A stretch of 64,000 nt of DNA, taken from Phycisphaerales bacterium. GTDB taxonomy: Bacteria; Planctomycetota; Phycisphaerae; Phycisphaerales; SM1A02. The notes under the pieces were generated by a model. It searched no databases, was not told the DNA's origin, and was given only the letters and a program-made list of their open reading frames with translations. This document shows positions 31,735 through 54,343 of the stretch, piece after piece (the stretch's first letter is position 1; every line of letters begins with the position of its first letter). Made by a program: the position numbers and the translations under genes. Location of the stretch: the NCBI GenBank assembly GCA_029247205.1, contig JAQWLT010000002.1:1-64000 (forward strand), in the 5' to 3' direction.

Positions 31735-32475
31735 CTAGGATGAAACGATCACTTCGCCCTCGGCCAGAAGCCTCATTGGGCCCTCGGGAGGGGTACTTCC
31801 ATCGGGCAGATGGATCAGCCGAATACGCGACTTGAGCTCATCTCCAAGCGTATCTAATTCGGCCCAAGTCGTGTGCTTAAAGTTGTCGCCGCACTCATGG
31901 ACGATCAAATCGCATTCCGCGAGCCATTCGATGTGGGCCATCTCGAATTCAGTGTCGGCGGACCAGCCAATCGAGCCACTCGGTCCCCGCAATCGCACGC
32001 CTGCGGTTGGCACGGAATGAAGCGTGCGGCGGCAATCGACCTCAAGCCCCGCAACTTCGTACTGTTGGCCTGGGATCAATTCCATAGGCTCAAAGTAGTC
32101 TTCAAGATGGCTCATGCCGCCATGCTCACGGGTGGCACCATCCATCGCCGGGGCGAGTTTCTCCCAGACCCGCTCGAGTACCTCTGGCAAAGCGTGCAGT
32201 CGGGGTCGCCGAGGCTCGCTGCTGAGATATCGGCGAGCAAATCCAAGGGTCTCTAGTCCATCGCTGTGATCGCCATGCAGATGGGTGAGCAGAATGTCAT
32301 CGATCGCCTGTACTTCGATTGGAATGCCACTGCTGGCCGAGGCTGCTCGGTACATCCCAAGCAGTCGTCCGGGACAGTCAATAGCGATGAGGCCTGCTGG
32401 AGCCTCGACAATGGCACTTGACCCGTAATGCAGGGCGCTGAAGGCGTCCCCGATTCCCGTAATAATGGCTCGCAT
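31735..32475 (-). CDS. MBL-fold metallohydrolase
   Basis: About 246 residues starting MRAIITGIGDAFSALHYGSS. The motif LLTHLHGDHSDGLETL holds the zinc-binding HxHxDH set; RRTLHSVPTAGVRLRG gives a further His, GWSADTEFEM the Asp, and IRLIHLPDG the last His. The layout is of the RNase Z or phnP-like group. Substrate unknown. The frame is open upstream to 32649, but the fold begins at the chosen Met. It is upstream of gcvP by 25 bases on the same strand and might share its transcript. Confidence 0.8.
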   Translation of the reverse strand: MRAIITGIGDAFSALHYGSSAIVEAPAGLIAIDCPGRLLGMYRAASASSGIPIEVQAIDDILLTHLHGDHSDGLETLGFARRYLSSEPRRPRLHALPEVLERVWEKLAPAMDGATREHGGMSHLEDYFEPMELIPGQQYEVAGLEVDCRRTLHSVPTAGVRLRGPSGSIGWSADTEFEMAHIEWLAECDLIVHECGDNFKHTTWAELDTLGDELKSRIRLIHLPDGSTPPEGPMRLLAEGEVIVSS

Positions 32476-32582
32476 ACCGACATAGTTACATGAATGAGTG
32501 GCTCGTGCAGCAAGATGTCGAAGATTGGTAGACTTCCAACCTGAGATCGTATGCCTGACGCCCTTAGTGCGGAAGGGACGCC

Positions 32583-34091
32583 ATGTCTGACAGGACGAGA
32601 GGAGGTCTCGTGCGACCACTTTCAGCACTTCTTGGGGGAACACCTCCACTCACCACGATCATTCTGCTGGCTATTCTTCTCGGCAGCAGCCCTGAGGCGA
32701 GCGGACAAGACCGTGGGACGGCCCTGCTCAATCGCATTGAGCAGCAGATGCTTGATGAAGAAATTGATCGCCGGCTCGCTGACCATCGCGGGCAGACCTT
32801 TGGCGAGAAACTGACACTCGACTACGGGGCCTCGCTCAGATTCGGCTGGGCCAAGTTGGACGACGCCAACTTCAACCCCTACGGACTTCGGCAATACGAG
32901 GCTAATGTGTACGTGCAGGCAACCGCCGGAGGCGGGCATAAGGTGTTCGGAAACCTTCGGTTCTTGTACAGCCAGTACTACAACAGTGAAAACTCAAATA
33001 ACGGCTATCTCAATCCAATCGGAAACCGGTATTGGTATCAGTTCGATCTCGGTGACTGGCAGCGTGTCAACGAAGGTGCCGCCGGCCCCTTCGACTTCAA
33101 TATCCGCGCAGGCCGACAATTCATAACGTGGAACTCGGGGCTCGTCTGGAGCAACGACATCTACGGTGCCAAGATGCGGGCAAGTTGGGAAGCGTTGTCA
33201 TTTGAAAGTGTTGTTGGCGTCTCGGCTCGCAGCGGCCTGTATGACTTTGATACCAGCCGACCGAATTACGACTCTGATACCAACCGGCATGTGTGGGGCA
33301 TTCGAGGGCAGTATGAGATCTCACCTGAACTCTCACCCTTCGTCTCGTACTTCGTGCAGCGAGATCACAATGACGAAACGAGGACGCTGCCAGCTCCCTT
33401 CGGCACCATGGAATTTGGATATGACTCGCAATATCTCTCCTTTGGCACTGATGGTTCAATCGGCAACCAATTTCTGTACACCCTGGAAATCTGTCATGAG
33501 TCGGGGACGGGATACTCGAGACCCGCCATTAATCCAGTGACCGGATTCGGATATCAGACACAAGGGGATATCGACGCGTGGGCTGGCGTCCTCAACATGG
33601 TGTACCTGCTGCGAGACGACCAACTCACACGATTTGAAATGACACTCGGATTTGGCAGTGGCGACGACAAGCGACTCACGAGCAGCTCGACAGCCGGCGC
33701 CCCACCGCCAACATCACCGAATGACCGGCAATTCAATAGCCTTGGGTACGTCAATACAGGCCTCGCCTTGGCTCCGAGCATGTCCAACCTCTTGATGGCC
33801 CGCGTTGGCGCCAGCACCGGCATTCCAATCAATCCGCATCGACCGGACGACTTACGAATTGGCGCCGACTTCTTCTTGCTTGGCAAGAACAATACCGACG
33901 CACCAATATCCGCCCCCTCAACACTCAGCCGCTACGTCGGCTGGGAGTGCGACTTCCGGGTGGACTGGCGAATCACCAGCGACGTCAGTTTCAACTTCAG
34001 ATACGGACTCTTCGTTCCAAACGGCGGAAACCCCGAACCCATCGATCAAGTCCGGCAGTTTGTTTATGGGGGGATCAGCTATGCGTTCTGA
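32583..34091 (+). CDS. Outer membrane beta-barrel, alginate-export/porin-like
   Basis: A 502-residue protein with signal peptide (about residues 1-42, ending SPEASGQ), a short helical stretch (LLNRIEQQMLDEEIDRRLAD), then a barrel of alternating aromatic and polar strands such as LDYGASLRFGWAKL and FGNLRFLYSQYYNSENSN, ending RQFVYGGISYAF with terminal Phe as in outer membrane barrels. The pattern of an alginate-export (AlgE-like) domain fits best, but the transported solute is not known. It overlaps the next gene (ATG at 34081) by eleven bases, and heads an operon of envelope and signalling genes. Confidence 0.7.
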   Translation: MSDRTRGGLVRPLSALLGGTPPLTTIILLAILLGSSPEASGQDRGTALLNRIEQQMLDEEIDRRLADHRGQTFGEKLTLDYGASLRFGWAKLDDANFNPYGLRQYEANVYVQATAGGGHKVFGNLRFLYSQYYNSENSNNGYLNPIGNRYWYQFDLGDWQRVNEGAAGPFDFNIRAGRQFITWNSGLVWSNDIYGAKMRASWEALSFESVVGVSARSGLYDFDTSRPNYDSDTNRHVWGIRGQYEISPELSPFVSYFVQRDHNDETRTLPAPFGTMEFGYDSQYLSFGTDGSIGNQFLYTLEICHESGTGYSRPAINPVTGFGYQTQGDIDAWAGVLNMVYLLRDDQLTRFEMTLGFGSGDDKRLTSSSTAGAPPPTSPNDRQFNSLGYVNTGLALAPSMSNLLMARVGASTGIPINPHRPDDLRIGADFFLLGKNNTDAPISAPSTLSRYVGWECDFRVDWRITSDVSFNFRYGLFVPNGGNPEPIDQVRQFVYGGISYAF

Positions 34092-34740
34092 ATGCAAACT
34101 CCTTGTATCCATGGTCACAATTGCTTACCTGAGTGGATGTGGGCTCACTGCACGCACCTCGATCGAATCGCCTGCTTCTCATCAATACCCCGCCGACGCC
34201 GACTCGCTGGACTTCTGGGATACCCTCGAGGCCCAACCAGTCACAACCAATGACGACGCGCTCCATGGGCTCTTGTTATTAGTTCAACAGAACCCACCTA
34301 CCGAAACATGGGAATCTCGGCTCACAGCAGCCCAGACCAAGGGCTGGATAGGCGAAAAAACCACGCTAGAGCCCAATGAATCGGCCCAAATGGGCATGAT
34401 CGCCGTATGCCTATGCCACATTCTGGATGTGCAGGGTGGTCTATCCATGCGGATGTTTGGCAGAATTCCTCGCTATTCCACCAGAGAACTGGTTCACATA
34501 GGGCTGATACCCGGCATAACCGAGCATGAAGCCCTGAGTGGGGCTGAATTCATCGCGTTGCTGGGCGCTGCCGAGCAACGCCAGTCCATCGACCACGCTC
34601 TGGCAGTCCGTAATGCCTCGGCGGCGGTCGCGGAGCCGGTTGCTGATGCACCCGGCCCCGATGCACCGGAAGCGGAACCGACGCCCGATACCCCATCGGA
34701 CCAGGCTCCAACAACCGAGGAAGGCGATACGACGTCATGA
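34081..34740 (+). CDS. Lipoprotein of unknown function
   Basis: A 219-residue protein from an ATG inside the previous gene's end. MRSECKLLVSMVTIAYLSGC carries a lipobox LSGC at residue 20. The middle section (WESRLTAAQTKGWIG, then MGMIAVCLCHILDVQGG and RYSTRELVHIGLIPGITEHE) looks helical and globular. The tail, about 40 residues, is rich in Pro, Ala, Asp and Glu and probably disordered. No family recognised. Translation is coupled to the barrel before and the FecR protein after (ATGA overlap at 34737-34740). Confidence 0.7.
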   Translation: MRSECKLLVSMVTIAYLSGCGLTARTSIESPASHQYPADADSLDFWDTLEAQPVTTNDDALHGLLLLVQQNPPTETWESRLTAAQTKGWIGEKTTLEPNESAQMGMIAVCLCHILDVQGGLSMRMFGRIPRYSTRELVHIGLIPGITEHEALSGAEFIALLGAAEQRQSIDHALAVRNASAAVAEPVADAPGPDAPEAEPTPDTPSDQAPTTEEGDTTS

Positions 34741-36236
34741 CGATTCGATACGCCCTGATCATCGCTCTTTGCTTGTCGGCCGCAGTCTCTGCGCAAGACA
34801 ACGCCCCTGTCACAACATCAACGACGCAAGAAAGCTTGGCGCCCTCTAGCCAGTCGACGAGGCAGACCATTCAAGCACGGCTTGCTGCGCTCAAGGCGAT
34901 TGCTCTAAAGGCTGCAAAGAAATTGCCTGAGGGTGAGACCAAGGTGCTACGAGCCGTCGTCATGGAAACTGCCGGCAAGGTTCAGTGGCGAAAGAATGCC
35001 GAGTCGGCTTGGAAGAAAGCTGCAAAGGATGACGTACTCGAACCAGACTCCATGATTCGAACCGGCTTGCGATCGTTCATGATGCTCAGGGTTGGTCTCA
35101 ACGCAAATATTCTCATCGATAGCGGCAGCCGAGTCACTCTCCCTCAGATGGTGCATGCGGGAGACACGCTGCGAACAACAGTACAGGTCGAACGCGGTCG
35201 CACAGACGTACAGGTTGGCCATGTCGGCTTGACGAATGACTTTTCAGTGCTGACGCCGTCCGGCGCCTTGGCCGTTCGCGGAACTGGCATGGCCGTGTCG
35301 CACAATGCGCTCAAGGGAACGCAGATCTTCGGCTCCCGCACCAATGCAATGGGCGCCATCGCCATGAAGTACTACGGGAGCAAAGTCTCCCACGTGATGT
35401 CGGGCGATGCGATCTCTACACAAAAGAGCCCGGACCCGGCGGCAGCCGAAGCATTCGAAACAGCTGGGCCAGCGCCGCTGCTCGCTACGGAGTCGCAGGA
35501 TCGGCAAGACGCCCCCGATCAGACGACGCAAGCAGTTTCAGGCGGCGATGCAGTCAATCAGTCGGTTCGCGTGTTGTTGGCTGATCAACAACAGGCCATC
35601 AATGATGAAATCATTGATGAGGAATTCGGCGATCCATTCTTGCAAGATGGCTTCTCGTGGTATGTCGGGGAAAATGGCGTCGTACTTCCTGAAGACATGG
35701 GTGCCGTTGCAACTGCGCTCTACTGGGACATGAAACTTCAGTACGTCCCACCGCATGTTGATCCGTATAACTCTGGCGGACACCGCGTCGCATCACGATT
35801 TGAACATGGGCTGTTCGCCGCAACTGGGTGGGTTGATCCACAACGAACCGAGTACATCCACGGCACGCCAGAGCAAGGCTACTCTCTCTGGATCCCCTTT
35901 GGCACCGAGTTGCCCACCGGCGAGGGCGCGTTGGCTACGACCTACCAGTCGATCATCGATTATGGCGATGCCAACTGGTCAGGCAGCCCATTCACAACAG
36001 ATGCTGAACTTGGCACCATGCTGACTATTGTAGATGGGTTCTGCGTGAACACGTTTGGCGGAGACGGTGACCATATCGTCGTGTGCCGAAAGGCCTTTGC
36101 CGATGCGATGAACGAAACTCTCTACAACGATTACTTCGGCATACCCAGCCTGACGCCCTACGGCCAAGGGCTGCAGAACCCCTATGGGGGCCAACTCGAG
36201 ATCCCAGGACACAACGAGCAAGATCACGTGCACTGA
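34737..36236 (+). CDS. Secreted FecR-domain protein
   Basis: A 499-residue protein with signal peptide MTIRYALIIALCLSAAVSAQ. After a coil region, residues about 80-220 hold a FecR domain: AVVMETAGKVQWRKN, PDSMIRTGLRSFMMLRVG, TTVQVERGRTDVQVG and SVLTPSGALAVRGTGMAVS. The C-terminal part has no known domain. In other bacteria FecR domains sit in surface signalling proteins or sense export substrates. It lies between the lipoprotein and a CHASE2 cyclase; the context suggests it monitors the cell surface. Stop at 36234-36236 precedes the cyclase start by about 28 bases. Confidence 0.8.
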   Translation: MTIRYALIIALCLSAAVSAQDNAPVTTSTTQESLAPSSQSTRQTIQARLAALKAIALKAAKKLPEGETKVLRAVVMETAGKVQWRKNAESAWKKAAKDDVLEPDSMIRTGLRSFMMLRVGLNANILIDSGSRVTLPQMVHAGDTLRTTVQVERGRTDVQVGHVGLTNDFSVLTPSGALAVRGTGMAVSHNALKGTQIFGSRTNAMGAIAMKYYGSKVSHVMSGDAISTQKSPDPAAAEAFETAGPAPLLATESQDRQDAPDQTTQAVSGGDAVNQSVRVLLADQQQAINDEIIDEEFGDPFLQDGFSWYVGENGVVLPEDMGAVATALYWDMKLQYVPPHVDPYNSGGHRVASRFEHGLFAATGWVDPQRTEYIHGTPEQGYSLWIPFGTELPTGEGALATTYQSIIDYGDANWSGSPFTTDAELGTMLTIVDGFCVNTFGGDGDHIVVCRKAFADAMNETLYNDYFGIPSLTPYGQGLQNPYGGQLEIPGHNEQDHVH

Positions 36237-36264
36237 ACGCGGGCGTGATACGCTGCGTGGCAGC

Positions 36265-38910
36265 GTGATTCGTCGTTCCAATCCCAAGGTACTTCTCTCG
36301 GCATTACTTGCCACACTAGCTGTTGTCTTGATTGACATTGCCGGCGGATTTGTCGGCTGGAATGAACAGCTGCTTGATCTTGAGCAGCAGCACTTGCCGC
36401 GCGACGTCGGCCCAATGTCGGACGACATCGTGATGGTTGACATCGACGACGCGGCCCTTGAGCGGCTTGCCCGCTGGCCGTGGCCGCGGAGCAAAATCGC
36501 TGGAGCAATCGAAGAATTGCACCGAGCTGGCGCCCGCACAATCGCCATCGATCTTGATCTCGCAGATCCACAAGAAAGCGATTCGATTGACCACGACGCA
36601 GAACTGGCTCGAGCCATCTCAGATCGCGTCATTCTGGGCACACTCTTGATTCCAGATGAACTCGAACTGCGATGGAACGGAGCCGGTGGAACCAATGAAC
36701 AACTAGAACAGGTACTGTCGGCCATCCAACAGGATCTCTCGCAAGACCCTCGGCTCAGCGCCCCTGAGTCAGCAGAACTCATTCAGGAAACGCTCCACTT
36801 GCTCCGCCGAAGAGCAATCTTTGAATCATCGGCTACTGAAACAGCGGAGTCACTGAGAAAGTCAGCGGGTGATCATCACGTTGCACTTGGACCAGCCATT
36901 GATGCTGCAGTACGACAGCGAGCAAGTCGCGATGGACTCATGGGCACGCTACCGGGCGGCCCAGACCGACCTCCCTCTGCAAGTGATCGCTTCCCACTAG
37001 AGAAATTCGCTGCTGCCTCTGGAGGCACCGGCTATGTCAATATCGTTCGCCGGAGCGTCGATGGCGGCATACGCCATATGGTGCCTTCGCAGCCAGTCGG
37101 CTACTCGAAAGTTATTGCCCCACTAGGCATTGCTGCAGTGCATCGATTTCTTGGAGAAGACACACCGCTCGTCATCGAGAACGACGAGTTGCGTATCGGC
37201 GATGTGGTTATTCCGCTCACTGACAATGCCATGACCGTCTGTTGGCCACGTGGGATAGCTGGTCTCGATTGGCCAAACCTCCATAGAAAAAATAGCGATG
37301 ACAATCGCTTCACTGGCCATGTGTCGATTGGCGAAGTCGTTGCTATGTCCGAAGCCAGAGACTTTCTTCAGTTGCAAGAGCAGGAAGTTGACAAAGCCTC
37401 GCGACTCGTACTTGCCGTCGTTCGTGGAACCGATGCCTTGGATATCGACGACTGGAACTCGCCTGAAATACAAGCTGAGATTCGCGAGGAAGTCTCGTGG
37501 TCACTTGAAAATATTACAACGCGCGCCGATATTGATGCTGCCGATATCAGCGAGGATGACCGCAACGGATTCCGGCGTATGTTCGACTGGAAAGTTGCGA
37601 CCAATAACCTCGCCGCTGCCAAGAGCCGACTTGCATCGTCTGAGGAACAACTTCGCAAAGCCGTCGACGACCGCCTCGTCTTTATTGGATGGACTGCAAC
37701 CGGAACACTGGCTGACTTTGTTCCTACGGCAGCGGGACCACGGACGCCTGGCGTCATGGTCCACGCCGCCATTGCCGACATGGTTCTACAGAACCGAGTA
37801 CTCCAAGAAGGACCAGCGTGGTGGTCCCCAGTGGCTGCTGCTCTCTGTGGCGTGATCGTTGCGCTACTTGCCAGCATCTTCAGCCCACTACCTGCAACGA
37901 TATCGGCTGTTGCCGTACTCACGGTGTGGGCAGGCATGCTGGTGTTGCTCTTTGGCCAATTTGGCTTAGTGCTGCCAGCCGCATCGCCACTTGTAGCGAT
38001 CACGCTGGCGTGGGCAAGTGGTACAAGTTCTCGTGCCATCTTGGTACAGCAGGAGAAAGGTCGCATCACGCGTCAGTTCCGCGCTCGCGTTCCTGCGGCT
38101 TTGATAGATGAGCTTGCTCGTGATCCAGATGCGCTCAGTATGCGTGGCGTGCGACGAGAAGTGTGCGTGATGTTTGGCGATCTTGCTGGCTTTACAACCC
38201 TCAGCGAGCAACTTGACACAGAAGCAACCGTGGCACTACTCAATCGCTGTATGGCAGGCCTGACCGAGCGTGTGACTGACCGCCACGCCTATCTCAACAA
38301 GTTTCTCGGCGATGGGTTCCTTGCATTCTGGTCTGCGTTTGGTGAGCAGCCGGATCAAGCCACACTCGCCTGTCACGCAGCGATTGAATGCCAAGCCTTC
38401 ATGGAGGAAATCAATGCCGCCTCTTCTGATGGCCTCCCAAAGTTAGGCCTACGAATCGGCATTGCGACGGGCGAGGCGGTCGTTGGTGACTGTGGAGCGC
38501 CCCCAAAATTGAACGACTACACAGTCATCGGGGATGTCGCAAATCTTGCCGCCAGGCTCGAGTCAGCCAATAAACAGTTTGGCACACCCATCTTGATGGA
38601 TGGTCGAACTCGCTCGCTCGTAACCAGCGGCGAGCTGCCCTTAATCGAAGTTGGTCCCATTCAGGTTGTTGGACGCGATGGCGTGATTGATGCATGGACG
38701 CTCGCCACCGGTCCGACTGACTGTGCGTTGGCCACACAAGCCTCCTCATTCGCCACGGCCATCCGATCGGGCGATCGTGTTGCGGCACAACAGGCCCTAA
38801 AGGGAATGAAGCAGCACGGTGCAAACTCAACCCTTACCCAAAAACTCTCAGAGTTGGTCAGCCAGAGCAGCGACCCCATGCCACACGCACTGCGGTTGAG
38901 CGAGAAATGA
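36265..38910 (+). CDS. CHASE2-domain adenylate/guanylate cyclase (class III)
   Basis: About 881 residues from a GTG at 36265 (frame open to 36184). One N-terminal span is followed by a CHASE2 sensor domain (VMVDIDDAALERLARWPWPR, TIAIDLDLADPQ), three membrane spans (around 520-620), then a class III cyclase: VCVMFGDLAGFTTLSEQL (metal Asp), LNKFLGDGFLAFWSAFGEQP (Lys and second Asp), GIATGEAVVGDCG, and NDYTVIGDVANLAARLESAN (Asn and Arg for the transition state). The Lys and Asp pair points to cAMP rather than cGMP. It turns an extracellular signal into cAMP. Its stop overlaps the next ATG. Confidence 0.88.
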   Translation: MIRRSNPKVLLSALLATLAVVLIDIAGGFVGWNEQLLDLEQQHLPRDVGPMSDDIVMVDIDDAALERLARWPWPRSKIAGAIEELHRAGARTIAIDLDLADPQESDSIDHDAELARAISDRVILGTLLIPDELELRWNGAGGTNEQLEQVLSAIQQDLSQDPRLSAPESAELIQETLHLLRRRAIFESSATETAESLRKSAGDHHVALGPAIDAAVRQRASRDGLMGTLPGGPDRPPSASDRFPLEKFAAASGGTGYVNIVRRSVDGGIRHMVPSQPVGYSKVIAPLGIAAVHRFLGEDTPLVIENDELRIGDVVIPLTDNAMTVCWPRGIAGLDWPNLHRKNSDDNRFTGHVSIGEVVAMSEARDFLQLQEQEVDKASRLVLAVVRGTDALDIDDWNSPEIQAEIREEVSWSLENITTRADIDAADISEDDRNGFRRMFDWKVATNNLAAAKSRLASSEEQLRKAVDDRLVFIGWTATGTLADFVPTAAGPRTPGVMVHAAIADMVLQNRVLQEGPAWWSPVAAALCGVIVALLASIFSPLPATISAVAVLTVWAGMLVLLFGQFGLVLPAASPLVAITLAWASGTSSRAILVQQEKGRITRQFRARVPAALIDELARDPDALSMRGVRREVCVMFGDLAGFTTLSEQLDTEATVALLNRCMAGLTERVTDRHAYLNKFLGDGFLAFWSAFGEQPDQATLACHAAIECQAFMEEINAASSDGLPKLGLRIGIATGEAVVGDCGAPPKLNDYTVIGDVANLAARLESANKQFGTPILMDGRTRSLVTSGELPLIEVGPIQVVGRDGVIDAWTLATGPTDCALATQASSFATAIRSGDRVAAQQALKGMKQHGANSTLTQKLSELVSQSSDPMPHALRLSEK

Positions 38911-40196
38911 TCTCGCCAGAGGAACATATGCCCCAGATTACAGCAGAACAAATTGATTGCATTCTGGAAGTCAGCCGCGTTCTGGGCAGCACCGATGATG
39001 CAGAGGCTGTCATTCATCGTGTCGCTGACTGTTTGCGGGATATTCTCGACGCCGAACGCGCCACAGTCTTTCAGTACGAGCCGAAATCGAGAGAGCTTGT
39101 CGCTGTTGCTGGGCACGGCCCCGACGGAACGTTCATGGAGTCACTCGGCGACATCCGCGTGCCACTCGGGACCGGCATCGCTGGCACTGCTGGAGAGACG
39201 CGAGAGATCATCAATATTCCAGACGCATATGCAGATGACCGGTTCTATCGAGGCATCGATGAGAAGACTGGCTATCGAACACGTAACATCCTGACAATTC
39301 CGTTGGTTGCCGCTGATGTAGATGAGTTGGTTGGCGTGGCGCAAGTACTCAACCGGCGTGAAGGACCCTTTGGCCCTGAATGTGAACGCATTGCCGCTGC
39401 GCTTGCGGCCCAGTCAGCCGTTGCGATGCGGCGAGCCTTGCTCTTGGCAGACCGGCTTGAACTTGTCAAATTGCAGCACGACCTCGACATAGCCCGTCGC
39501 ATTCAAGCGGCGACATTCCCTGATGTCTTTCCCGAATTACCCGGCTGGGAAATTCATGGGTGGAGCATGCCTGCCGATGCTACTGGGGGCGACGCCTTTG
39601 ATGCCGTTGTAGTAAACGGTGGCGCCATGCTCGTGGTTGGCGATGCGACCGGCCATGGCATTGGGCCAGCGATTTCAGTTACTCAGGTGCGATCGATGCT
39701 TCGAATGGGCGTGCGACTCGATGCACCACTTCTAGAACTCGTGCGAGAGCTCAATCATCAGTTGTGGCAGGACACATCATCGATGCAGTTCGTCACGGCC
39801 TTCTTTGGTCGAGTGAATGCCACAACCGGAGAGATCGAAACCATTTCAGCAGGGCATGGACCGAATCTACTCATTCGCGCTGACGGGACGATTGAGGAGT
39901 TGGATGCTGACGCCCCACCACTAGGCGTACTCGAAGACCTCGCACTCGATGAACCGCGCATGATCACGCTCAACCCAGGCGACATGCTCGCAATTCCAAC
40001 TGATGGCATCTTTGAAGCCATGGACGAGGCAGGTGTCATGTATGGCACCGAACCCATGCTCGACCTACTGCGAGCACCGGACGATCGCTCGCTTGCTGAG
40101 ACACTTGAACTCTTACGAATAGACACAGAGCGCTTTCGAAACGATGGGGCGCCACAAGACGACCGCACGATTCTGGCTATCCGGCGCAGCATCTAG
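38907..40196 (+). CDS. GAF-domain SpoIIE-type protein phosphatase (RsbU-like)
   Basis: A 429-residue protein. The GAF domain covers about residues 18-180 (ILEVSRVLGSTDDAEAVI, VPLGTGIAGTAGETREIINI), a short coil follows, then a PPM/SpoIIE phosphatase: MPADATGGDAFDAVVV (metal Asp), MLVVGDATGHGIGPAI, ETISAGHGPNLL and LAIPTDGIFEAMD (metal Asp). Such enzymes dephosphorylate anti-sigma factor antagonists. It overlaps the cyclase stop by four bases (ATGA). The GAF domain could bind cAMP made by its neighbour (inference). The anti-sigma partner is not in the window. Confidence 0.85.
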   Translation: MISPEEHMPQITAEQIDCILEVSRVLGSTDDAEAVIHRVADCLRDILDAERATVFQYEPKSRELVAVAGHGPDGTFMESLGDIRVPLGTGIAGTAGETREIINIPDAYADDRFYRGIDEKTGYRTRNILTIPLVAADVDELVGVAQVLNRREGPFGPECERIAAALAAQSAVAMRRALLLADRLELVKLQHDLDIARRIQAATFPDVFPELPGWEIHGWSMPADATGGDAFDAVVVNGGAMLVVGDATGHGIGPAISVTQVRSMLRMGVRLDAPLLELVRELNHQLWQDTSSMQFVTAFFGRVNATTGEIETISAGHGPNLLIRADGTIEELDADAPPLGVLEDLALDEPRMITLNPGDMLAIPTDGIFEAMDEAGVMYGTEPMLDLLRAPDDRSLAETLELLRIDTERFRNDGAPQDDRTILAIRRSI

Positions 40197-40198
40197 CA

Positions 40199-41557
40199 TT
40201 ACGAAGTGCGTGATGCTGTGATTGACGAGTCCTCCCACTCATCACTCTGGCCATATCCCAACGCTTCACTATTCTCCCATGCTTCAATCTCAACCCGAGC
40301 AAGATCATCGCGGAACGAGATGGCAAACATGAAGAACACCATGCCAAGGAAAGCCCATGTGACCGTCGGGTAGTACAGGGTCTGATTCGTCATGCTCTGC
40401 AAGAACATTGCCACCATGATTGATGAAACTGCATGAATCGTCATTTGATCCTCGGCATACACAAACAGTTTGCGTGCTCGCCAAGTTCGCAAAATGCTCT
40501 TCGCAGCGACGATCGCCGGTATGAACATCATGATGAAAAGAGGAATCCCCCCCACATACAACATGTCAATCCAAGCATTGTGAGCGTGATTACCAATGAT
40601 CTCATCCATCAGTCCATCATGGCCACTCGTTCCAAACAACCCAAGTGGACGGCGAATCAACGTATGCAGATAGTCCCACCAGATTTCAACGCGACCACTG
40701 CTATGGAGCTCTGTGAGTCTCGCGCCAGCGCCTTCTTCAAAGCCAGCAATGATCGGAATGAGAATGGCAGCGACAATACCTCCAGCAATCAAAATGCCTG
40801 GACGCTTCACCAATGGGAATAGCATGAGCACGCTCACAATGCCGAGTGACATGAAACTCATGCGGCTGCCCGCCAGGAGAATAAATCCGCAGCTCGCAGC
40901 AAATCCGCCCATGCAAATCAGACGATAAAGCTGGACTTTGGTCGTCATCAATAAGTACAAGAGCATCGCGCCGGAGATAACGAAAGAAATGCCGATCATG
41001 TTTGGCGAGGCACCCCACGGTTCAAATCGATGTAGACCTGGGATGAACGCGCCTGAACCCTGAATCGCCAGAGCAGAGAATGGCACAACGAGCGCAATAG
41101 TCGTACCCACAGCCATCGCTCGCATGAGTCGAGCCAAATCTTCGAGATCTCTTAACGACCCAATAAGGGAAATGGCCGCAAGTGCCATCACAATGCCCTG
41201 CCCACGAATGAGCAGCATGTCAATATTGTTGGATGTGCCTACCACACAAATCATCATCCACACACCAGCAACCGGGTAGAGCCACACGATGCCAGGGATA
41301 TATCGCCGTTCTCCTGGGCGGAGCCACGCAGCGACCGCGATCAGTAGTAACAGAATGCCCGACGAGAGTTTTGTCATCGCCTGGATTGCGCCGAGATCGA
41401 CACACTTCGATAGAAACAGCCATAGTGGCATGAGCCAAATCAAAATGAAGGGGCGGCTATTGGCTGGCAGCATGACAAATACAATGCATGCGGCAATGGC
41501 CCCGATGACCAAAACGGGCAGTGGCACAATCTCAAGATAGATCGCGAGTTTGTCCAC
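40199..41557 (-). CDS. O-antigen ligase / polymerase-like membrane protein
   Basis: A 452-residue protein from a GTG start with 10-12 hydrophobic spans. A large periplasmic loop around residues 300-340 (WWDYLHTLIRRPLGLFGTSG and HAHNAWIDMLYVGGI) holds the H-x-x-x-x-x-x-x-G-like region of WaaL/Wzy ligases and polymerases, and RMSFMSLGIV the usual short Arg turn. Inferred role: joins polysaccharide chains on the outer side of the inner membrane. It is convergent with the phosphatase gene, two bases between stops, and downstream of the flippase. Confidence 0.72.
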   Translation of the reverse strand: MDKLAIYLEIVPLPVLVIGAIAACIVFVMLPANSRPFILIWLMPLWLFLSKCVDLGAIQAMTKLSSGILLLLIAVAAWLRPGERRYIPGIVWLYPVAGVWMMICVVGTSNNIDMLLIRGQGIVMALAAISLIGSLRDLEDLARLMRAMAVGTTIALVVPFSALAIQGSGAFIPGLHRFEPWGASPNMIGISFVISGAMLLYLLMTTKVQLYRLICMGGFAASCGFILLAGSRMSFMSLGIVSVLMLFPLVKRPGILIAGGIVAAILIPIIAGFEEGAGARLTELHSSGRVEIWWDYLHTLIRRPLGLFGTSGHDGLMDEIIGNHAHNAWIDMLYVGGIPLFIMMFIPAIVAAKSILRTWRARKLFVYAEDQMTIHAVSSIMVAMFLQSMTNQTLYYPTVTWAFLGMVFFMFAISFRDDLARVEIEAWENSEALGYGQSDEWEDSSITASRTS

Positions 41558-41628
41558 TCAACGGCGCCTTTCTGTCTTGTCGAAGCTGTCCGGTTCGTCG
41601 ATCACTAATCTTGGGGGCATGAGACCAT

Positions 41629-43251
41629 TCATCGTCGCAGCATCCCAAGAATTCGTACCCGTTCGTCTCGGTGTATAAGGATACCGAGCACGCATGGAGC
41701 GGACACCGCCCCAACAATGGCAACCATGACGATAAGCAAAGGCCATGTCCAAGCGTCAATCTGCCAGACCATCAAACTAGCAGTAAGCAGTGGTATGACT
41801 GCTGTGAGTATTGGGCGACCAAATGCACTCCATAGATAGGTTAATCCACGGATGCCCGTGAGACGAACGAGTCGCCGAGGAAAAATAAAACCAAAGAACA
41901 CTACTTGCACAAGCAAGGTCGACGCAGGGAAGAGCAGCACAGTTTCAACGGCTGGCTTCCCGCCAGCAGCAACCTGCAGCACGGCGATGACGATGGAAAT
42001 CGATAGTACGAACTTCGTCACTGCGGCGGCATACATAATTCCGGCATATCGTTTGACGTGGCCCATTCCGAAGAGGAATTGTGTGCCAACCTGAGCGATC
42101 TCAAGCAAAATGCCGCCAATGAGCAACAACATAAGGATAAACCACACCAGATCAAGTGCCTCGTCGTATGACATGATCGAAATAAGCGACTCATCAGATC
42201 GAAGACGAGAGCCCAGCCAGAGGTCAATGAGCGGCCGAAAGAAAATCGCTACAAAACCAGTACAGAGAATCATGGCGCCTGAGGTAATTCGGGTCACGGC
42301 TAACATCGCCCGAACGTTCACTTCATGCCCACTTCGCTCGTGCATGTCGGCCACGGTCGCTTCCATGCCAGAGAAACCTTCAGAACCAATTCGCCGCGCA
42401 TACCCACGCAACTGATTCACGATTCCCCAAATGGCGTTGTAAATAGGCCCATAGACAATATTGAGTAGGTAGTTATCGAGGAAAAAGAAGGTGACATTGC
42501 CAACTGGCTGCGACATCGACAGCGAACCAACGTGTGCAAGCCTCTTGCTTGTCGTTCTGCACAAGGATCGATATCGAAAGCGTGCTTCCGGTATCTGTGA
42601 CCATGTCATGACAAGCCGCACACCAGAGTGCAGCAACGTAAACACCATACGAGCGACTACAAACCCGATGAAGACATCGAATCCGAAAAGATGATGATCA
42701 AGTACCGCGACACCAAAGGCAACCATATCCAAGATGCGAAGTACTGTCAGATCGGTGTTAAACGCGATGGGCTGATGCTTCACGAGGTAGAGCGACAGCC
42801 ACGGTGCCGTCGTCACGGTGGTGGCAACGATGACTGCTTGGCATGCAAAGGCAATTGTGACCGCACGCGTCTGCGACTCTGGAAAATTCAATAGGACGGG
42901 CAAGAATGCCAGGCAAGCCCCAGCGATCACAAGGAGCACGACGGACAGTACCAGTACGACCGCGACTCCATTGGTGAACTCTCGCTCAACACCCTCTTGC
43001 CCCTTTTTCGCGCGGGCATGCACGATGGCCTTGACGACGGTACGCGTCACGGCCGAGCGAAGCGGTGAGGTCAAGGCCATGGAAAGTTGATTGAGAAGTT
43101 GAAAGAGGCCAAAGAGCACGAGGCCAAAGGCGCCAATCTGAAGTGGCGTTAAGACAAACCCAACCAGCATCATCAGACCCATACGGACAGTATTGGATCC
43201 AAAGAAGAACACTAAATTGCGGGAGACCCCAGGGCGAGGCGACTGGCTCAT
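41629..43251 (-). CDS. Polysaccharide flippase-like membrane protein (Wzx/MurJ superfamily)
   Basis: About 540 residues starting MSQSPRPGVSRNLVFFFGSN; the frame is open to 43344. About 12-14 hydrophobic spans, with the first helix NTVRMGLMMLVGFVLTPLQIGAFG and charged loops typical of polysaccharide transporters. It would flip lipid-linked sugar units across the inner membrane. It lies upstream of the ligase on the same strand, with 71 bases between, and divergent from a sulfotransferase gene. Together they suggest a surface polysaccharide locus. Confidence 0.72.
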   Translation of the reverse strand: MSQSPRPGVSRNLVFFFGSNTVRMGLMMLVGFVLTPLQIGAFGLVLFGLFQLLNQLSMALTSPLRSAVTRTVVKAIVHARAKKGQEGVEREFTNGVAVVLVLSVVLLVIAGACLAFLPVLLNFPESQTRAVTIAFACQAVIVATTVTTAPWLSLYLVKHQPIAFNTDLTVLRILDMVAFGVAVLDHHLFGFDVFIGFVVARMVFTLLHSGVRLVMTWSQIPEARFRYRSLCRTTSKRLAHVGSLSMSQPVGNVTFFFLDNYLLNIVYGPIYNAIWGIVNQLRGYARRIGSEGFSGMEATVADMHERSGHEVNVRAMLAVTRITSGAMILCTGFVAIFFRPLIDLWLGSRLRSDESLISIMSYDEALDLVWFILMLLLIGGILLEIAQVGTQFLFGMGHVKRYAGIMYAAAVTKFVLSISIVIAVLQVAAGGKPAVETVLLFPASTLLVQVVFFGFIFPRRLVRLTGIRGLTYLWSAFGRPILTAVIPLLTASLMVWQIDAWTWPLLIVMVAIVGAVSAPCVLGILIHRDERVRILGMLRR

Positions 43252-43419
43252 GCCATCGCTCCCAGACCCACGGTTCGGAGAGGTGGTCCCAGCGGCTGTG
43301 TGCAGCGGCTCATCGGCTCGTATCGTAGCAGGCAACCAACCCACGGCATGGTTGGCAAGGTGAACGCCCCCCCGACGAGGCTATACTCCCAACTCTTCAA
43401 GCATGCGGCGACTCTACAC

Positions 43420-44304
43420 ATGACACTTCCGTCCTTCTTGATCATCGGCGCCATGAAGTCTGGCACGACGACGCTTTTTCAAGATCTCGCGACGCACCCT
43501 GATGTCGCCGATCCCCTTGACAAAGAACCTGGGGATCTCAAGAGCGACGAAGTCCTCTCGCCACACGGACTGGCGGCCTACCAGCGACAATTTTCCGCGT
43601 GTAAGGCAGGCCAACAGACTTATGAGGCATCAACCCACTACACCCAACGACCGCGGTGGACAGGGGCTGCCGCCCGGGCTCGCACTATTCTCGGAAAGGA
43701 CCTTCGGATCCTATACATCGTCCGCGAGCCGGTCGCCCGAGCGTGCTCGCACCATCGACATCTGGTCGCCGCAGGCGAAGCCGACACGGACATCAACACC
43801 GTTGTCCGGGACAATCCACTACTCATTCAGTACAGCCGCTACTTCATGCAACTTGAGCCATGGCTTCAGACATTTGATCGTGATCAAATCAAAGTCATTC
43901 GATTCGAGTCGTATGTCGCAGATCGACCAAGCGCTGCCACCGATGTGCAAGCGTTTCTTGGTCTGAGCCCTCGACCAGATTTGGTCCACAAGTCGTCGAT
44001 CAGCAATGCGAGCGAAGGCAAACTCATGCACACGAGCTTCAGCGATAACATTGGAAATTCCCCGCTCTACCGCAGTCTCATTCGCCCACTTATACCCGCT
44101 CGATTCAAGCGTGCTGCGAAACAGCGTTTGATGAGGCGGACGTCTGGATCGGTTGATGCCCCACGAAGCGACACGATTCGTCTCATTCTTGATGCCACCG
44201 CGGAAGACACCCAGCGAATTAGCTCGCTGATATCGCCCTCGCTGCCTGCCGGGCATATGGCATGGGATGAAACTTCCGCCATGAAACTTACACGAGACGC
44301 TTGA
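43420..44304 (+). CDS. Sulfotransferase
   Basis: A 294-residue cytosolic enzyme using PAPS. The 5'-phosphosulfate loop is FLIIGAMKSGTTTLFQDLAT at the N-terminus, the 3'-phosphate region is LRILYIVREPVARACSHHRH near 110, and there is a C-terminal sulfotransferase block. Acceptor unknown; the nearby flippase and ligase point to a polysaccharide. ATG at 43420 is used; the frame is open upstream to 43300. The 44302-44304 stop precedes the next gene's ATG by 23 bases. Confidence 0.82.
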   Translation: MTLPSFLIIGAMKSGTTTLFQDLATHPDVADPLDKEPGDLKSDEVLSPHGLAAYQRQFSACKAGQQTYEASTHYTQRPRWTGAAARARTILGKDLRILYIVREPVARACSHHRHLVAAGEADTDINTVVRDNPLLIQYSRYFMQLEPWLQTFDRDQIKVIRFESYVADRPSAATDVQAFLGLSPRPDLVHKSSISNASEGKLMHTSFSDNIGNSPLYRSLIRPLIPARFKRAAKQRLMRRTSGSVDAPRSDTIRLILDATAEDTQRISSLISPSLPAGHMAWDETSAMKLTRDA

Positions 44305-48553: not shown

Positions 48554-49257
48554 CTCTAAGACAAATGAAGACACAAGCCTGCTTTGGAGCGACGGCGATC
48601 ATGCTGAGTTGCCTAGCCACCGTTTCGCAAGCGAGTTTGGTCGGCACACTGAGTGTCGGAACAGACACGGGCTACGGCGAGACCTTTGAGGTTGTGGGAT
48701 CACCCCTTCCCGGCGACGCGTGGTTCTGGACATCTCAAATTGCAACAAGCGAGTTCACAGCCTCCATTTCGATGATGGGCGAACCTGGCACACCGAGTCT
48801 TGGCACATCCTTACAAGTCGTCAATGGAACGACTGAGTCGATGGAGATGTCGGTCGACTTCATAATGCCGATTGACCTATTAGTGAATGGAGAACTGGAG
48901 TGGTCCGGATCGCAGGCGGCAACGCTCAACGGTACCGATGTCATTCTTGCAAGCGTGTTGGACGCATCAGTGTGGTCAGCCAGCCTCGGCGAAGACACAT
49001 TCGCGATGCTACTTGATGCACCCTTTGAATTGCAGGTAAACGGGACTGGCTCTAACGCCGCAAGCGACTCCTCCTCGGGGACGCTGACATGGACTGGAGG
49101 CGAGACGTTGTCGGTGCACTACCTATTCGAACTCAGTGGCGGGGCATCGGTGCAATTCAATGGCGGAGTCGGGCTCCTTCAGGTACCTGCAGCCCCTTCG
49201 ATCGCCCTCCTCCTTGCCGCCGGAATTGTTGGCCGCACTCGGCGACGCAGCTGCTGA
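48550..49257 (+). CDS. PEP-CTERM-like secreted protein, second of a pair
   Basis: A 235-residue protein whose ATG overlaps the previous stop, with GAGGAG nine bases upstream. Signal peptide FGATAIMLSCLATVSQAS; the body resembles the preceding protein in composition (GDAWFWTSQIATSEFTASIS, many Thr, Ser, Gly), suggesting an old duplication, though similarity is weak. It ends VPAAPSIALLLAAGIVGRTRRR, a PAPS-type tail. The two are probably made together. Confidence 0.68.
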   Translation: MTLRQMKTQACFGATAIMLSCLATVSQASLVGTLSVGTDTGYGETFEVVGSPLPGDAWFWTSQIATSEFTASISMMGEPGTPSLGTSLQVVNGTTESMEMSVDFIMPIDLLVNGELEWSGSQAATLNGTDVILASVLDASVWSASLGEDTFAMLLDAPFELQVNGTGSNAASDSSSGTLTWTGGETLSVHYLFELSGGASVQFNGGVGLLQVPAAPSIALLLAAGIVGRTRRRSC

Positions 49258-49589
49258 GCCAACATTTGGCAATTCTGGGAACCTGCCGCGTCAACTGGCT
49301 ATCGCTTCCAGAGTGCACAAACTTGCTGCACTCGACCGGCTTGCGAATCCCGACGGTGTGTACCAATCGCATCAATCCCGTGGCATGGGCATACCTTCTC
49401 CTTGTTTACCTCGCAACATCGCTCGTCTAATGAAAGCGGGGCCAGAAGGAAAGCACTGTTCAGATTTGCAATGACGTCAAGCGACAGATGTTCAGCAAAG
49501 CGATGCTTTTCGGTGAAACCATGATTGTGCGGGCCGTTCGCAAGTAGCGACGCGGTCTACCAACCTTCATCCCTTCTTCAGGGGCGTGC
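49258..49589. other. 332-base stretch with no supported gene
   Basis: This gap lies between convergent genes. Only short overlapping frames occur, without RBS or domains. No clear terminator hairpin with a T-run was seen. Confidence 0.5.
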
Positions 49590-49985
49590 TCATGTTGCAG
49601 CATGAGCCATGAGATCTGCTAAAGACACAACTTCCAGCGTTCGCTGATGGGTCGCATCCAAGACGACTTCCGGAGCACAGTCATGCTCGAACGCCTCTTG
49701 CCAGCGTGGCGCGCACAAACACCATTGGTCGCCCGGCTTTAGTCCAGGGAAACCCCACTCGGGGTGTGGCGTACTGAGGTCATTGCCTGCGGCTTGAGAG
49801 AATGCAAGGAACGCAGCGGTCATGACTACACAGACTGTGTGCATTCCTTCGTCGTCGGTGCCGCTCTCACAACAACCAGTGCGATAGAAGCCCGTAACAG
49901 GATCGCGTGAGCACAATTGAAGCGGCTCACCGAGCACGTTTAACGACTCTGTGACTTGATTGGCCGGGGTGGCTTGCTTGATCAT
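49590..49985 (-). CDS. DUF2237 family protein
   Basis: A 131-residue protein with the full DUF2237 pattern: SLNVLGEPLQLCSRDPVTGF, TGCCESGTDDEGMHTVCVVM, GNDLSTPHPEWGFPGLKPGD and WCLCAPRWQEAF. Five conserved Cys residues and Asp/His positions suggest a metal site. Function unknown in all hosts. It starts four bases after the peroxiredoxin stop, so the two are probably co-transcribed, hinting at a redox role. Confidence 0.85.
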   Translation of the reverse strand: MIKQATPANQVTESLNVLGEPLQLCSRDPVTGFYRTGCCESGTDDEGMHTVCVVMTAAFLAFSQAAGNDLSTPHPEWGFPGLKPGDQWCLCAPRWQEAFEHDCAPEVVLDATHQRTLEVVSLADLMAHAAT

Positions 49986-49989
49986 CGTG

Positions 49990-50472
49990 TCAGGCGGTAG
50001 AAGTCAACTCGCGAACTGCTGAGAGCACCTCTTCGTATGGAGGTTGCTCACCGGGATTGTCCGCCAACCACCTCCACGACACTGCCCCAGTGGCGTCGAT
50101 AACAAAGACACTTCGCTGAGCGACGTCATAGCCAGGCATGTTTGCAAGATCTGCAAACCGAATTCCGTAGGCGTCAATTGTACTTCTCGTGTAGTCGGAT
50201 AACACTTGAAAGTTGAGCTGATGAGCAGCAACAAATGCGGCGTTCACGAACCGACTGTCGATGCTGATTCCAAGGACCTTTGCATCAATATCGTTGTAGG
50301 TTGCCATAGAGTCTCGGAATGAACACAGTTCTGTTTCGCATACTCCAGTAAATGCCGCTGGGAAGAAAGCAAGAACGACAGGCGTTCCGCGAAGATCGCT
50401 CAGTGTCACTTGATCGCCGTTGTCTGCGAAGAGCGTGAAGTCTGGAGCTGCTTGTCCGATGGATGTGGTCAT
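49990..50472 (-). CDS. Peroxiredoxin (AhpC/TSA, AhpE-like)
   Basis: A 160-residue thioredoxin-fold peroxidase that reduces hydroperoxides. The peroxidatic Cys lies in FFPAAFTGVCETELCSFRD near residue 45, and a second Cys five residues later could act as the resolving Cys. The length and the strand LGISIDSRFVNAAFVAAHQ fit the AhpE-like/1-Cys group. Electron donor unknown. It precedes the DUF2237 gene by four bases. Confidence 0.87.
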   Translation of the reverse strand: MTTSIGQAAPDFTLFADNGDQVTLSDLRGTPVVLAFFPAAFTGVCETELCSFRDSMATYNDIDAKVLGISIDSRFVNAAFVAAHQLNFQVLSDYTRSTIDAYGIRFADLANMPGYDVAQRSVFVIDATGAVSWRWLADNPGEQPPYEEVLSAVRELTSTA

Positions 50473-51775: not shown

Positions 51776-53242
51776 CTAGATCTGAACGACCTGATCGAAG
51801 GGCATGGTCGCCACATAGACCAGACCATTCACTTCCAACTGAAGATCGGCAGTGCCACCTAACTCATGAGGAATAGCTGCCTGCAGTATCTGTGTCCCAA
51901 ACCCACCGGCAATTGACTCTGGCAATACTCCTGAATGTTGCTCGCGCCAGACAAGTTTCAATTCCGTTTCTGACCCGCGTTCGATCGACCATTTCACTGA
52001 TATTTGACCGCAATGCAAGATGGCCCCATGTTTGGTGGCATTGGTCGCCAACTCATTAAGCACCATGGCTAGTGTCATGGCGGCCTTAGGCACAAATCGG
52101 CATTTGGGCGCATCGACCTCGATGACTTGACTTCCATCTTTTACATAGGGCGATAGACAAAGCCAAGTCAACTCCGCGCAATCAACACCCGTTGCTCGCT
52201 CATTACTGAGCAATTCATGAACAGCGGAGAAGTTTTGAATACGACGACTGAGCGATTCAATCACATTGATATCAGAAGTTGCATTTGTTTCCGCCTCCCT
52301 GCACAGCACAAGGATTTGGGAAAGCATATTTTTGACTCGATGATCAAGTTCGTTACCGAGGAGCCGTTCCTGCTCTGCTGCAATTTTCAATGCTTCCTGC
52401 TGCTCACGCACCGCTGTGAGATCTCGAAGCGTAGCCGTAAAGTACTGATTCCCTTTGTGCACAAAAGGTATGACAGCCATTTCCACTGGAAACTCTTGGC
52501 CATCCTGCTTCATAGCCATCACCTCAATCCGACGATTAAGAATTGGCCCTTCGGCGGTTTTACGGAAGTGCCGCATGCCTGCAGCATGCTGGGCACGTAA
52601 AGCAGGCGGAATAATCAGGGTGCTTAGTTCCTTGCCGATTGCGCTATCACGCGCGTGACCAAACATGTCAGAAGCAACATCATTGAATTCTACGATACAC
52701 CCCTGATCATCGATTGTGATCATCCCATCAAGTGCGCTATCGAGGATAGACTTCAAACGCTCTCGCTGCTGCTCCCGAATAAGGCTGCTCTCTGTGGACT
52801 CACGAAACGCTACATCTCGCGCCTGAAGGGCAAACAGCAAATCTGGCACTGAGTCCTGCGGCGCAAAGTCGTTTATTACGAGACCCGACTCAACAAATTC
52901 AGCGTGCGACCTGATCAATGGCACCGCAGCCATGATGCAGGCACATTCTGCATCAGTCGTAAATGCGGCCCCTCGCAGTTGTACGCTCAGCCCGGCAAAC
53001 TCCATCACAACCAGCCGCCCGGAGATCCGATGCAAATCGTCGAGATTGGAAATCTCACATGCTGGCTGCACAATAGAGACCCAATCTGTAAACAGAACTC
53101 CGGGTCGAATGCCCTCGACGTGCCTGCTCAGACACTCGCCAACATGTGTGATACGCAGTTGATGATCGACAACAAAGGACCATGGCAATGGACCATTCAG
53201 ATCACTGGCCTTCAAGTGCGGCGAATCAGGACCAGTTGACAT
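51776..53242 (-). CDS. H-NOX-associated (HNOBA) PAS histidine kinase, HisKA_2 type
   Basis: About 488 residues from ATG 53242; the frame is open to 53290. Residues 1-150 match the haem-NO-binding-associated domain (LPWSFVVDHQLRITHVGECL, ISGRLVVMEFAGLSVQLRGA). A PAS domain follows (about 165-280, ILDSALDGMITIDDQGCIVE and a PAC segment). The kinase has GNELDHRVKNMLSQILVLCR, with the phospho-acceptor His near 301, and MVLNELATNATKHGA (N box) of HisKA_2/HWE kinases. It overlaps the H-NOX gene upstream by 17 bases. It likely transmits NO or O2 sensing to a response regulator. Confidence 0.87.
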   Translation of the reverse strand: MSTGPDSPHLKASDLNGPLPWSFVVDHQLRITHVGECLSRHVEGIRPGVLFTDWVSIVQPACEISNLDDLHRISGRLVVMEFAGLSVQLRGAAFTTDAECACIMAAVPLIRSHAEFVESGLVINDFAPQDSVPDLLFALQARDVAFRESTESSLIREQQRERLKSILDSALDGMITIDDQGCIVEFNDVASDMFGHARDSAIGKELSTLIIPPALRAQHAAGMRHFRKTAEGPILNRRIEVMAMKQDGQEFPVEMAVIPFVHKGNQYFTATLRDLTAVREQQEALKIAAEQERLLGNELDHRVKNMLSQILVLCREAETNATSDINVIESLSRRIQNFSAVHELLSNERATGVDCAELTWLCLSPYVKDGSQVIEVDAPKCRFVPKAAMTLAMVLNELATNATKHGAILHCGQISVKWSIERGSETELKLVWREQHSGVLPESIAGGFGTQILQAAIPHELGGTADLQLEVNGLVYVATMPFDQVVQI

Positions 53243-53771
53243 GAAATACTGATTCCAATCCCGTGTCTTCTTTGGAAGACACCTGCTCAATCTTCACGTC
53301 AATTTTAAATCGCCGCCCCAACCCACGCAGTAGACCGATGACAAGATCATCAAGGCCATCACGCCCGGACTTATAGTGGAGCATCAGACTGCCCTCGGCA
53401 ATCTCCGAGCATACAAATGACGGCGGCTTGAGATCCGGGTACATCATGCCCACTCGCGTATGCAACTGATCCAAGTTCTGTAGAAATTCAGGAAGGGTGC
53501 TTCCAGCGGCATCCAATAGTGGTCCATACCCCTCATCGGCTGTGAATTCGGTCCAGTACTCACCGAAGGCCTGAAGGATTTCTGACGCAGGCAAGCCAAG
53601 CACATCCGAAGCAGCTCCAACCAGCGCGTATGTCGTCGCATCATCACCTGGGCACATGCGAATAAAAGCTGCATCGGTGGCACCAGATTGTTTGAAAATC
53701 TGATCCCACTGCTGCTCGCTAAACTTAGATTTGACGAGATCTCGGATTGCAATATTGATTAATCCATACAT
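53226..53771 (-). CDS. H-NOX haem-nitric oxide/oxygen sensor
   Basis: A 181-residue protein with the full H-NOX signature: MYGLINIAIRDLV at the start, TTYALVGAASDVLGLPASEI, FGEYWTEFTADEGYG, haem-ligand His at residue 104 (DQLHTRV), the conserved Pro region (PDLKPPSF) and the haem-propionate motif Y-x-S-x-R at 133-137 (LHYKSGRDG). H-NOX proteins bind NO at haem and control a partner kinase or cyclase. Here the partner is the overlapping HNOBA kinase. No Tyr for O2 binding can be assigned by eye. Intergenic distance to the divergent regulator is 91 bases. Confidence 0.92.
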   Translation of the reverse strand: MYGLINIAIRDLVKSKFSEQQWDQIFKQSGATDAAFIRMCPGDDATTYALVGAASDVLGLPASEILQAFGEYWTEFTADEGYGPLLDAAGSTLPEFLQNLDQLHTRVGMMYPDLKPPSFVCSEIAEGSLMLHYKSGRDGLDDLVIGLLRGLGRRFKIDVKIEQVSSKEDTGLESVFHVNWS

Positions 53772-53862
53772 ATTGCAGCACTATAGTAGGAGACGAACTT
53801 CAACGAAATCACCTACCCTGCACATCGATGCAGATGGGAGCCTTCGCGGTATATTCAATCTC

Positions 53863-54228
53863 ATGACCTCCACTCAAGCCATTCTGACCGTAGAAGACGC
53901 CTTTCTGGTGGGCCTTCAACTCAAACGGGATGTCGAATCACTTGGATATGAAGTTCTTGGACCAGCGCCCACGGCTAAAGCTGCTCTTGCCTTGCTGGAT
54001 CATCCCAATCTCGCCTTCGCCATACTCGACATCAATTTAGGTGAAGGAAACTCGATCACGGTAGCCAAAGCCCTGCAAGATCGTGACATTCCGTTTGTCT
54101 TCATTACCGGCTATCAGTCAGTAGATGTCGCCGGGCTCGAGCACGCTGAAGTGATCCGAAAGCCTGCCTCTGCAGCCCAGATCCTCAGTGCAATCACAAA
54201 GGCTATCCCCCCACCAACATCATCGTAG
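53863..54228 (+). CDS. Single-domain response regulator
   Basis: A 121-residue receiver domain with no output domain: ILTVEDAFLVGLQLKRDVES (acidic pocket), phospho-Asp at residue 56 in AFAILDINLGEGNS, conserved Thr in FVFITGY and Lys in VIRKPAS. It resembles CheY-like receivers paired with HWE/HisKA_2 kinases. The frame is open to 53731, but the ATG at 53863 gives a complete receiver. Divergent from H-NOX, it is the likely phosphate target of the HNOBA kinase. Confidence 0.88.
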   Translation: MTSTQAILTVEDAFLVGLQLKRDVESLGYEVLGPAPTAKAALALLDHPNLAFAILDINLGEGNSITVAKALQDRDIPFVFITGYQSVDVAGLEHAEVIRKPASAAQILSAITKAIPPPTSS

Positions 54229-54326
54229 ATTGACTGACCAAGAGATCATCAGTTTCCTTGGTGCGATCTACAAACCAACTGAAGCTGCCTCTCATGTCAC
54301 AGCACACTATTGGTGGGACATCTAGT

Positions 54327-54343
54327 ACTCAACTGACTTGAGT
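54327..54343. terminator. Hairpin at the 3' end of the Ser/Thr kinase gene
   Basis: ACTCAA (54327-54332) and TTGAGT (54338-54343) form a 6-bp stem with a 5-base loop, overlapping the kinase stop codon. It has no T-run, so it is a weak terminator or an RNA-stability hairpin. Confidence 0.3.

Follow-up and report, generated by a model that had tools for sequence, protein, structure and literature searches.

A CHASE2 adenylate cyclase locus of Phycisphaerales flanked by a candidate cAMP-reading phosphatase and a candidate cAMP-degrading phosphodiesterase

Cyclic AMP (cAMP) output in bacteria is usually equated with regulators of the CRP family. In Sinorhizobium meliloti, a surface signal is turned into cAMP by the CHASE2 class III cyclases CyaK, CyaD1 and CyaD2, and NsrA, an outer-membrane barrel protein with its barrel at residues 600-1200, is needed for this signalling (PMC7529298, PMC13001267). 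The cAMP reader in S. meliloti is the CRP-type protein Clr. In Burkholderia, the BiofilmReg operon pairs an exported LysM-FecR protein with a CHASE2 sensor, but the output is a histidine kinase with a response regulator, and neither a cyclase nor a barrel is described in the operon (PMC5192318). We describe here a locus at positions 31735 to 40196 of a 64,000-nucleotide stretch of DNA (the window; contig JAQWLT010000002.1, positions 1 to 64,000 of the forward strand) from a Phycisphaerales bacterium, whose assembly (GCA_029247205.1; 2.26 Mb in 70 contigs) is 86% complete. The locus places a predicted surface sensor and a CHASE2 adenylate cyclase beside a GAF-SpoIIE phosphatase and a divergent phosphodiesterase-like gene. 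We give an even chance to the reading that these genes form a write-read-erase cAMP cassette, leading from a surface sensor to a partner-switching phosphatase instead of to CRP.

Five open reading frames (ORFs) on the forward strand encode, in order, an outer-membrane beta-barrel (32583..34091), an SLH-like helical lipoprotein (34081..34740), an exported FecR-domain protein (34737..36236), an inner-membrane CHASE2 adenylate cyclase (36265..38910) and a GAF-SpoIIE phosphatase of the PP2C type (38907..40196). Three of the junctions overlap, by 11 nt between barrel and lipoprotein (ATGCGTTCTGA) and by 4 nt both between lipoprotein and FecR gene and between cyclase and phosphatase. The FecR-cyclase junction is either a 28-nt gap, if the cyclase starts at GTG 36265, or a 53-nt overlap, if the alternative start at ATG 36184 is used. 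The barrel gene probably starts at GTG 32610, directly after AGGAGGT, in preference to 32583. A first-pass annotation of the window had described five genes with coupled ends, which this layout confirms, and the observation that it proposed as a refutation, a lack of gene-order conservation, was not made, as the order is kept in relatives. From the gene overlap, a single transcript is likely in the window lineage. The first-pass annotation had overlooked a divergent gene on the complementary strand (31735..32475), which encodes a predicted metallo-beta-lactamase (MBL) fold class II phosphodiesterase resembling Apyc1 and YhfI. The region between the two divergent genes (32476..32609) is, judged by sequence alone, a probable promoter region. 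A promoter and terminator scan of the window gave no signal exceeding that of shuffled sequence, and no Rfam or tRNA elements were found in it.

Conservation of the first four genes was followed in an order-level survey of 201 genomes, in which the FecR protein had a match in 66 and the cyclase in 85. Forty regions were retrieved and all of their ORFs were searched with profiles. Apart from occasional FecR duplications and a small number of rearrangements, nearly all intact loci of families f1, f2, f4, f5 and f6 had the order barrel-lipoprotein-FecR-cyclase. When contigs were scanned with an alignment of the lipoprotein, 73 loci were found, which partly overlap the contigs of the family-based set, and nearly all of them have the same order; a contig scan with the cyclase alone gave no match. 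The bins holding the 73 loci are titled as planctomycetes of the Phycisphaerales type, with a few under other or uncultured titles, and so far the lipoprotein has been found only in planctomycete bins. An in-frame ATG 11 nt ahead of the barrel stop is kept in 54 of 72 loci, most commonly in the form ATGCGTTCTGA. At loci L074, L067, L086, L089 and L092, the FecR proteins occupy the same operon slot, range from 276 to 1748 amino acids, and are at times duplicated. FecR was the only domain recognised in the Phycisphaerales-type FecR proteins scanned, and their long C-terminal parts had no Pfam match.

The arrangement in which genes for a barrel and a FecR domain directly precede one for a CHASE2 class III cyclase recurs in S. 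meliloti, where a protein with FecR, TPR and, at its C-terminus, a weak barrel match lies directly upstream of a CHASE2 cyclase. By layout and size this protein fits NsrA. Since FecR and barrel are joined in one protein there, contact between the FecR protein and the barrel is supported for the window locus, and the S. meliloti surface-to-cyclase path indicates that a path from sensor to cyclase can work. Unlike NsrA-CyaK, the window locus has these parts in separate genes, includes an SLH-like lipoprotein, lies in a genome where no CRP was found, and is flanked by the genes for the GAF-SpoIIE phosphatase and the Apyc1-like phosphodiesterase. The kind of cAMP output is possibly new.

The AlphaFold2 model of the barrel has 18 strands, with a mean predicted local distance difference test (pLDDT) score of 81.6, and the protein ends in Phe. 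Its 17 best PDB fold matches in Foldseek are all AlgE (E about 1e-17), the alginate exporter, which likewise has 18 strands and with which it shares 13-14% identity; unlike AlgE, the window barrel is linked to signalling genes. Pfam Alginate_exp matched the barrel at E 1.9e-5, slightly below its cut-off, and 35 homologues were collected. No TonB-dependent receptor was found among the fold matches of the model. Neither Pfam nor NCBIfam gave a match for the lipoprotein, whose lipobox Cys is invariant in 32 homologues. The lipoprotein model (pLDDT 88.7) is helical and its fold looks SLH-like, the 15 best Foldseek matches being SLH domains with E no better than 2e-3 and TM of about 0.4-0.6, with no Pfam SLH match. 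The Pfam FecR domain lies at residues 107-189 of its protein and scored 22.8 bits in hmmscan (cut-off 24) and 26.3 in the genome search. By hydropathy the protein has one N-terminal hydrophobic segment, taken as a signal peptide, and no internal membrane segment, and it looks exported and soluble. By sequence, no PDB relative was found for the barrel or the lipoprotein, each searched as a profile, or for FecR, searched as a single sequence. The cyclase matches Pfam CHASE2 (E 3.7e-32) and Guanylate_cyc (5.2e-18) and carries the class III residue set, namely the metal Asp pair, the purine-site Lys and Asp, and the transition-state Asn and Arg. Both metal Asp, the purine-site Lys, the Asn and the Arg are invariant in 41 of 41 homologues and the purine-site Asp is kept in 40 of 41; because of this conservation, the protein should be an active adenylate cyclase. 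The sensor and cyclase parts of the cassette are well supported.

Linkage of the flanking genes to this core was counted in 181 genomes of the family, the counts being uncorrected for relatedness. Phosphatase and cyclase occurred together in 68 genomes, the cyclase alone in 8, the phosphatase alone in 9 and neither in 96 (Fisher 2e-30). Where both genes fell on one contig (55 cases), the phosphatase always lay on the cyclase's 3' side, and in 54 cases it was within 490 bp of the cyclase's 3' end. It was codirectional with the cyclase in 16 and convergent in 39 of the 55 (16 and 38 of those within 490 bp). As most relatives have it convergent, the phosphatase gene is conserved as a neighbour but does not always belong to the operon. 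The corresponding counts for the MBL gene and the cyclase were 68, 8, 24 and 81 (p 5e-20); wherever the two shared a contig (45 of 45 cases), the MBL gene lay upstream in divergent orientation. In four genomes (G033, G205, G206 and G207) the core is absent and phosphatase and MBL gene adjoin on one strand, for example at G033:C1:2856487-2858550. This is as expected if the core had been deleted from the convergent layout, and the adjoining of the two genes without the core shows that both flanks belong to one locus.

The MBL protein matches Pfam Lactamase_B_2 and also Apyc1, the latter with 46.9 bits (cut-off 50). A profile of 21 homologues found Apyc1 structures as its best PDB matches (7u2r, E 4e-33; 7u2s, 2e-32), the HxHxDH metal motif is present, and the metal-ligand residues are invariant. 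YhfI of B. subtilis, which is closely related to Apyc1, has a preference for cAMP and cGMP (PMC9117128). The window enzyme shares fold family, best structural relatives and metal ligands with Apyc1 and YhfI, but it differs in its conserved chromosomal position next to an adenylate cyclase operon. It is a candidate cAMP eraser.

The phosphatase (Pfam SpoIIE 6.8e-42; GAF 1.9e-14) has the catalytic Asp residues of SpoIIE in the motifs GGD, DATGHG, DG and DD, and D229, D246, D366, D418 and D419 are invariant in its homologues. The best PDB relatives of its GAF domain (38964-39476) are CyaB2 (1.5e-27) and PDE2A GAF-B (1.8e-27), followed by PDE10A, PDE5 and PDE6; nearly all are cyclic-nucleotide-binding GAFs, and one is an HD-domain phosphohydrolase. 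Two other GAFs of the same genome, taken for contrast, had no match to GAFs of this type. Given the incomplete NKFDE motif described below, membership of the cyclic-nucleotide-binding GAFs is treated as a lead. In Anabaena CyaB2, cAMP is contacted by R291, T293, D356 and N359, the R and T touching the adenine base (PMC4411481). These align to R51, T53, D118 and T121 of the window GAF, a chain offset of 57 fitting all four, and the four residues are invariant in 19 homologues. Because the adenine-contact R and T are kept, a preference for cAMP is favoured by analogy. The GAFs of CyaB2 and of mammalian PDE2 and PDE10 share the sequence type and adenine-contact residues with the window GAF, but there the effector is a cyclase or a phosphodiesterase, whereas here it is a SpoIIE phosphatase. 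A literature search for cAMP-regulated GAF-SpoIIE phosphatases listed no paper that, judged by its title, deals with such an enzyme. Elsewhere in the genome, a REC-GAF-Ser/Thr kinase gene whose GAF is also of the cyclic-nucleotide type (E 2e-21 to CyaB2) is followed by a STAS gene (G000:C19:39235-41574; L144:4235-6574). This kinase is a possible opponent of the operon phosphatase, and the STAS protein a candidate shared substrate. The genome also encodes an FHA-GAF-SpoIIE protein, its domains assigned by eye.

As the cAMP reader, CRP was rejected, since the window's own genome has no match to the cyclic-nucleotide-binding (CNB) domain. Two fuller genomes of the same genus (96% and 97% complete) agree, with CRP likewise not found. 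Among 31 family f1 genomes with the operon, CNB is missing in 16, and 13 of those 16 carry the GAF phosphatase. The f1 CNB proteins examined were MscS-type channels, an ion channel, POPDC-like proteins and a lone CNB, none of them a CRP; those outside the examined set are unlikely to be CRP because their frames are 448 amino acids or longer. Crp-HTH proteins are present in families f5 and f6, in which no copy of the phosphatase was observed next to the operon. Three of the relatives' loci that were inspected (L147, L148 and L149) hold MscS-type mechanosensitive channels that carry a cyclic-nucleotide-binding domain at the C-terminus, in relatives carrying the operon.

Under the cassette reading, the AlgE-like barrel and the SLH-like lipoprotein in the outer membrane would form a sensor together with the exported FecR-domain protein. 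The state of this sensor would be relayed through the periplasm, presumably by contact, to the CHASE2 domain of the cyclase in the inner membrane, and cAMP would be made. In the cytosol, the GAF domain of the neighbouring phosphatase would bind the cAMP, and the phosphatase would dephosphorylate a STAS-type protein, thereby switching the partner of that protein, which could be an anti-sigma kinase or some other target. The divergent MBL phosphodiesterase would destroy the cAMP and reset the system. A partner-switching target is available, since STAS and RsbW-like HATPase genes occur in the genome: pairs of them lie on contigs C2 and C39, a STAS gene follows the GAF kinase on C19, and others lie elsewhere. 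On C39 (G000:C39, about 48610-50437; L141:6611-8437), HATPase_c_2 and STAS genes, a partner-switch pair, are directly followed by a gene for an MlaE permease of lipid transport. Somewhat more tentatively, the locus may represent a CRP-free bacterial cAMP pathway, in which a surface signal raises cAMP, a GAF-gated PP2C phosphatase answers it and acts on a STAS partner-switching module, the REC-GAF-kinase with its STAS protein perhaps opposes it, and an Apyc1-like phosphodiesterase is the off-switch. If so, there would be a second cAMP route to cell control, its receptor probably a phosphatase, in bacteria where CRP was not detected; Apyc1-like phosphodiesterases would gain a chromosomal signalling role, and these uncultured planctomycetes a first account of environmental sensing. 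The first-pass annotation had also proposed a surface-sensing path with a cAMP step and an anti-sigma output. The first part stands, given the conserved four-gene core, the S. meliloti precedent, the phosphatase link and the GAF type. An anti-sigma output is a possibility only, and the FecR protein, exported and with no sigma gene among the adjacent genes scanned, does not have the anatomy of an anti-sigma factor, a role that was rejected on these grounds.

Several observations weigh against the cassette reading, and some of them favour an alternative in which the four-gene core alone is the signalling unit, the phosphatase is a stable neighbour answering another ligand or cyclase, and cAMP is read elsewhere, for example by the REC-GAF-kinase on C19 or by the CNB channels of some relatives. 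The NKFDE motif of the window GAF is incomplete, N and F being kept while K is replaced by R and D by C159; the D is kept in 16 of 19 homologues, and alanine changes in this motif abolish cGMP binding by PDE2 (PMC11977230). Phosphatase and MBL gene can outlive the core, as the four genomes described above show, and two of these, G205 and G207, lack any detected class III cyclase. Three genomes (G075, G117 and G193; L068, L065 and L066) have the core, with neither CNB nor the GAF-SpoIIE phosphatase found. The genome holds a second cyclic-nucleotide-type GAF, that of the kinase, and the phosphatase is convergent in most relatives. The core-only alternative is nevertheless rather unlikely in our view, as it leaves aside the strong co-occurrence, the adjacency in 54 of 55 cases, in two orientations and always at the 3' side of the cyclase, and the type and conserved contact residues of the GAF. 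Also to be set against the cassette are that the STAS and RsbW-like genes lie apart from the operon, with no phosphatase target linked to it; that MBL enzymes have varied substrates and the Pfam Apyc1 score is slightly below its cut-off; and that at 86% completeness the missing CRP is not final.

It is improbable that the locus instead serves to export or assemble a surface polysaccharide, with the barrel as polymer channel, the lipoprotein as its anchor, and the FecR protein, cyclase and phosphatase regulating the polymer. By fold, the barrel matches AlgE far better than anything else, and downstream of the operon lie genes for a protein resembling O-antigen ligases (40199-41557), a multi-spanning membrane protein (41629-43344) and a sulfotransferase (43300-44304); homologues of the first two also come after the operon in G181. 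However, most relatives keep the core but have no homologue of those two genes after the operon, barrels of the AlgE type can also act as general channels, and in S. meliloti the NsrA barrel is a receptor in the same setting. Cell-surface signalling of the FecA-FecR-FecI kind, with the barrel as receptor and FecR as anti-sigma of an extracytoplasmic function (ECF) sigma factor, is suggested by a FecR domain beside an outer-membrane barrel but can practically be discounted, its layout being contradicted by a FecR protein that is exported and does not span the membrane, by the absence of a sigma factor among the adjacent genes scanned, and by an AlgE-like barrel that matches no TonB-dependent receptor.

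In the remainder of the window, the genes at 40199-44304, of which that for the multi-spanning membrane protein has no Pfam match, are perhaps a sulfated polysaccharide cluster. Further downstream, at 51776-55806, lie genes for a PAS/HWE histidine kinase (51776-53290) and a Ser/Thr kinase (54343-55806).

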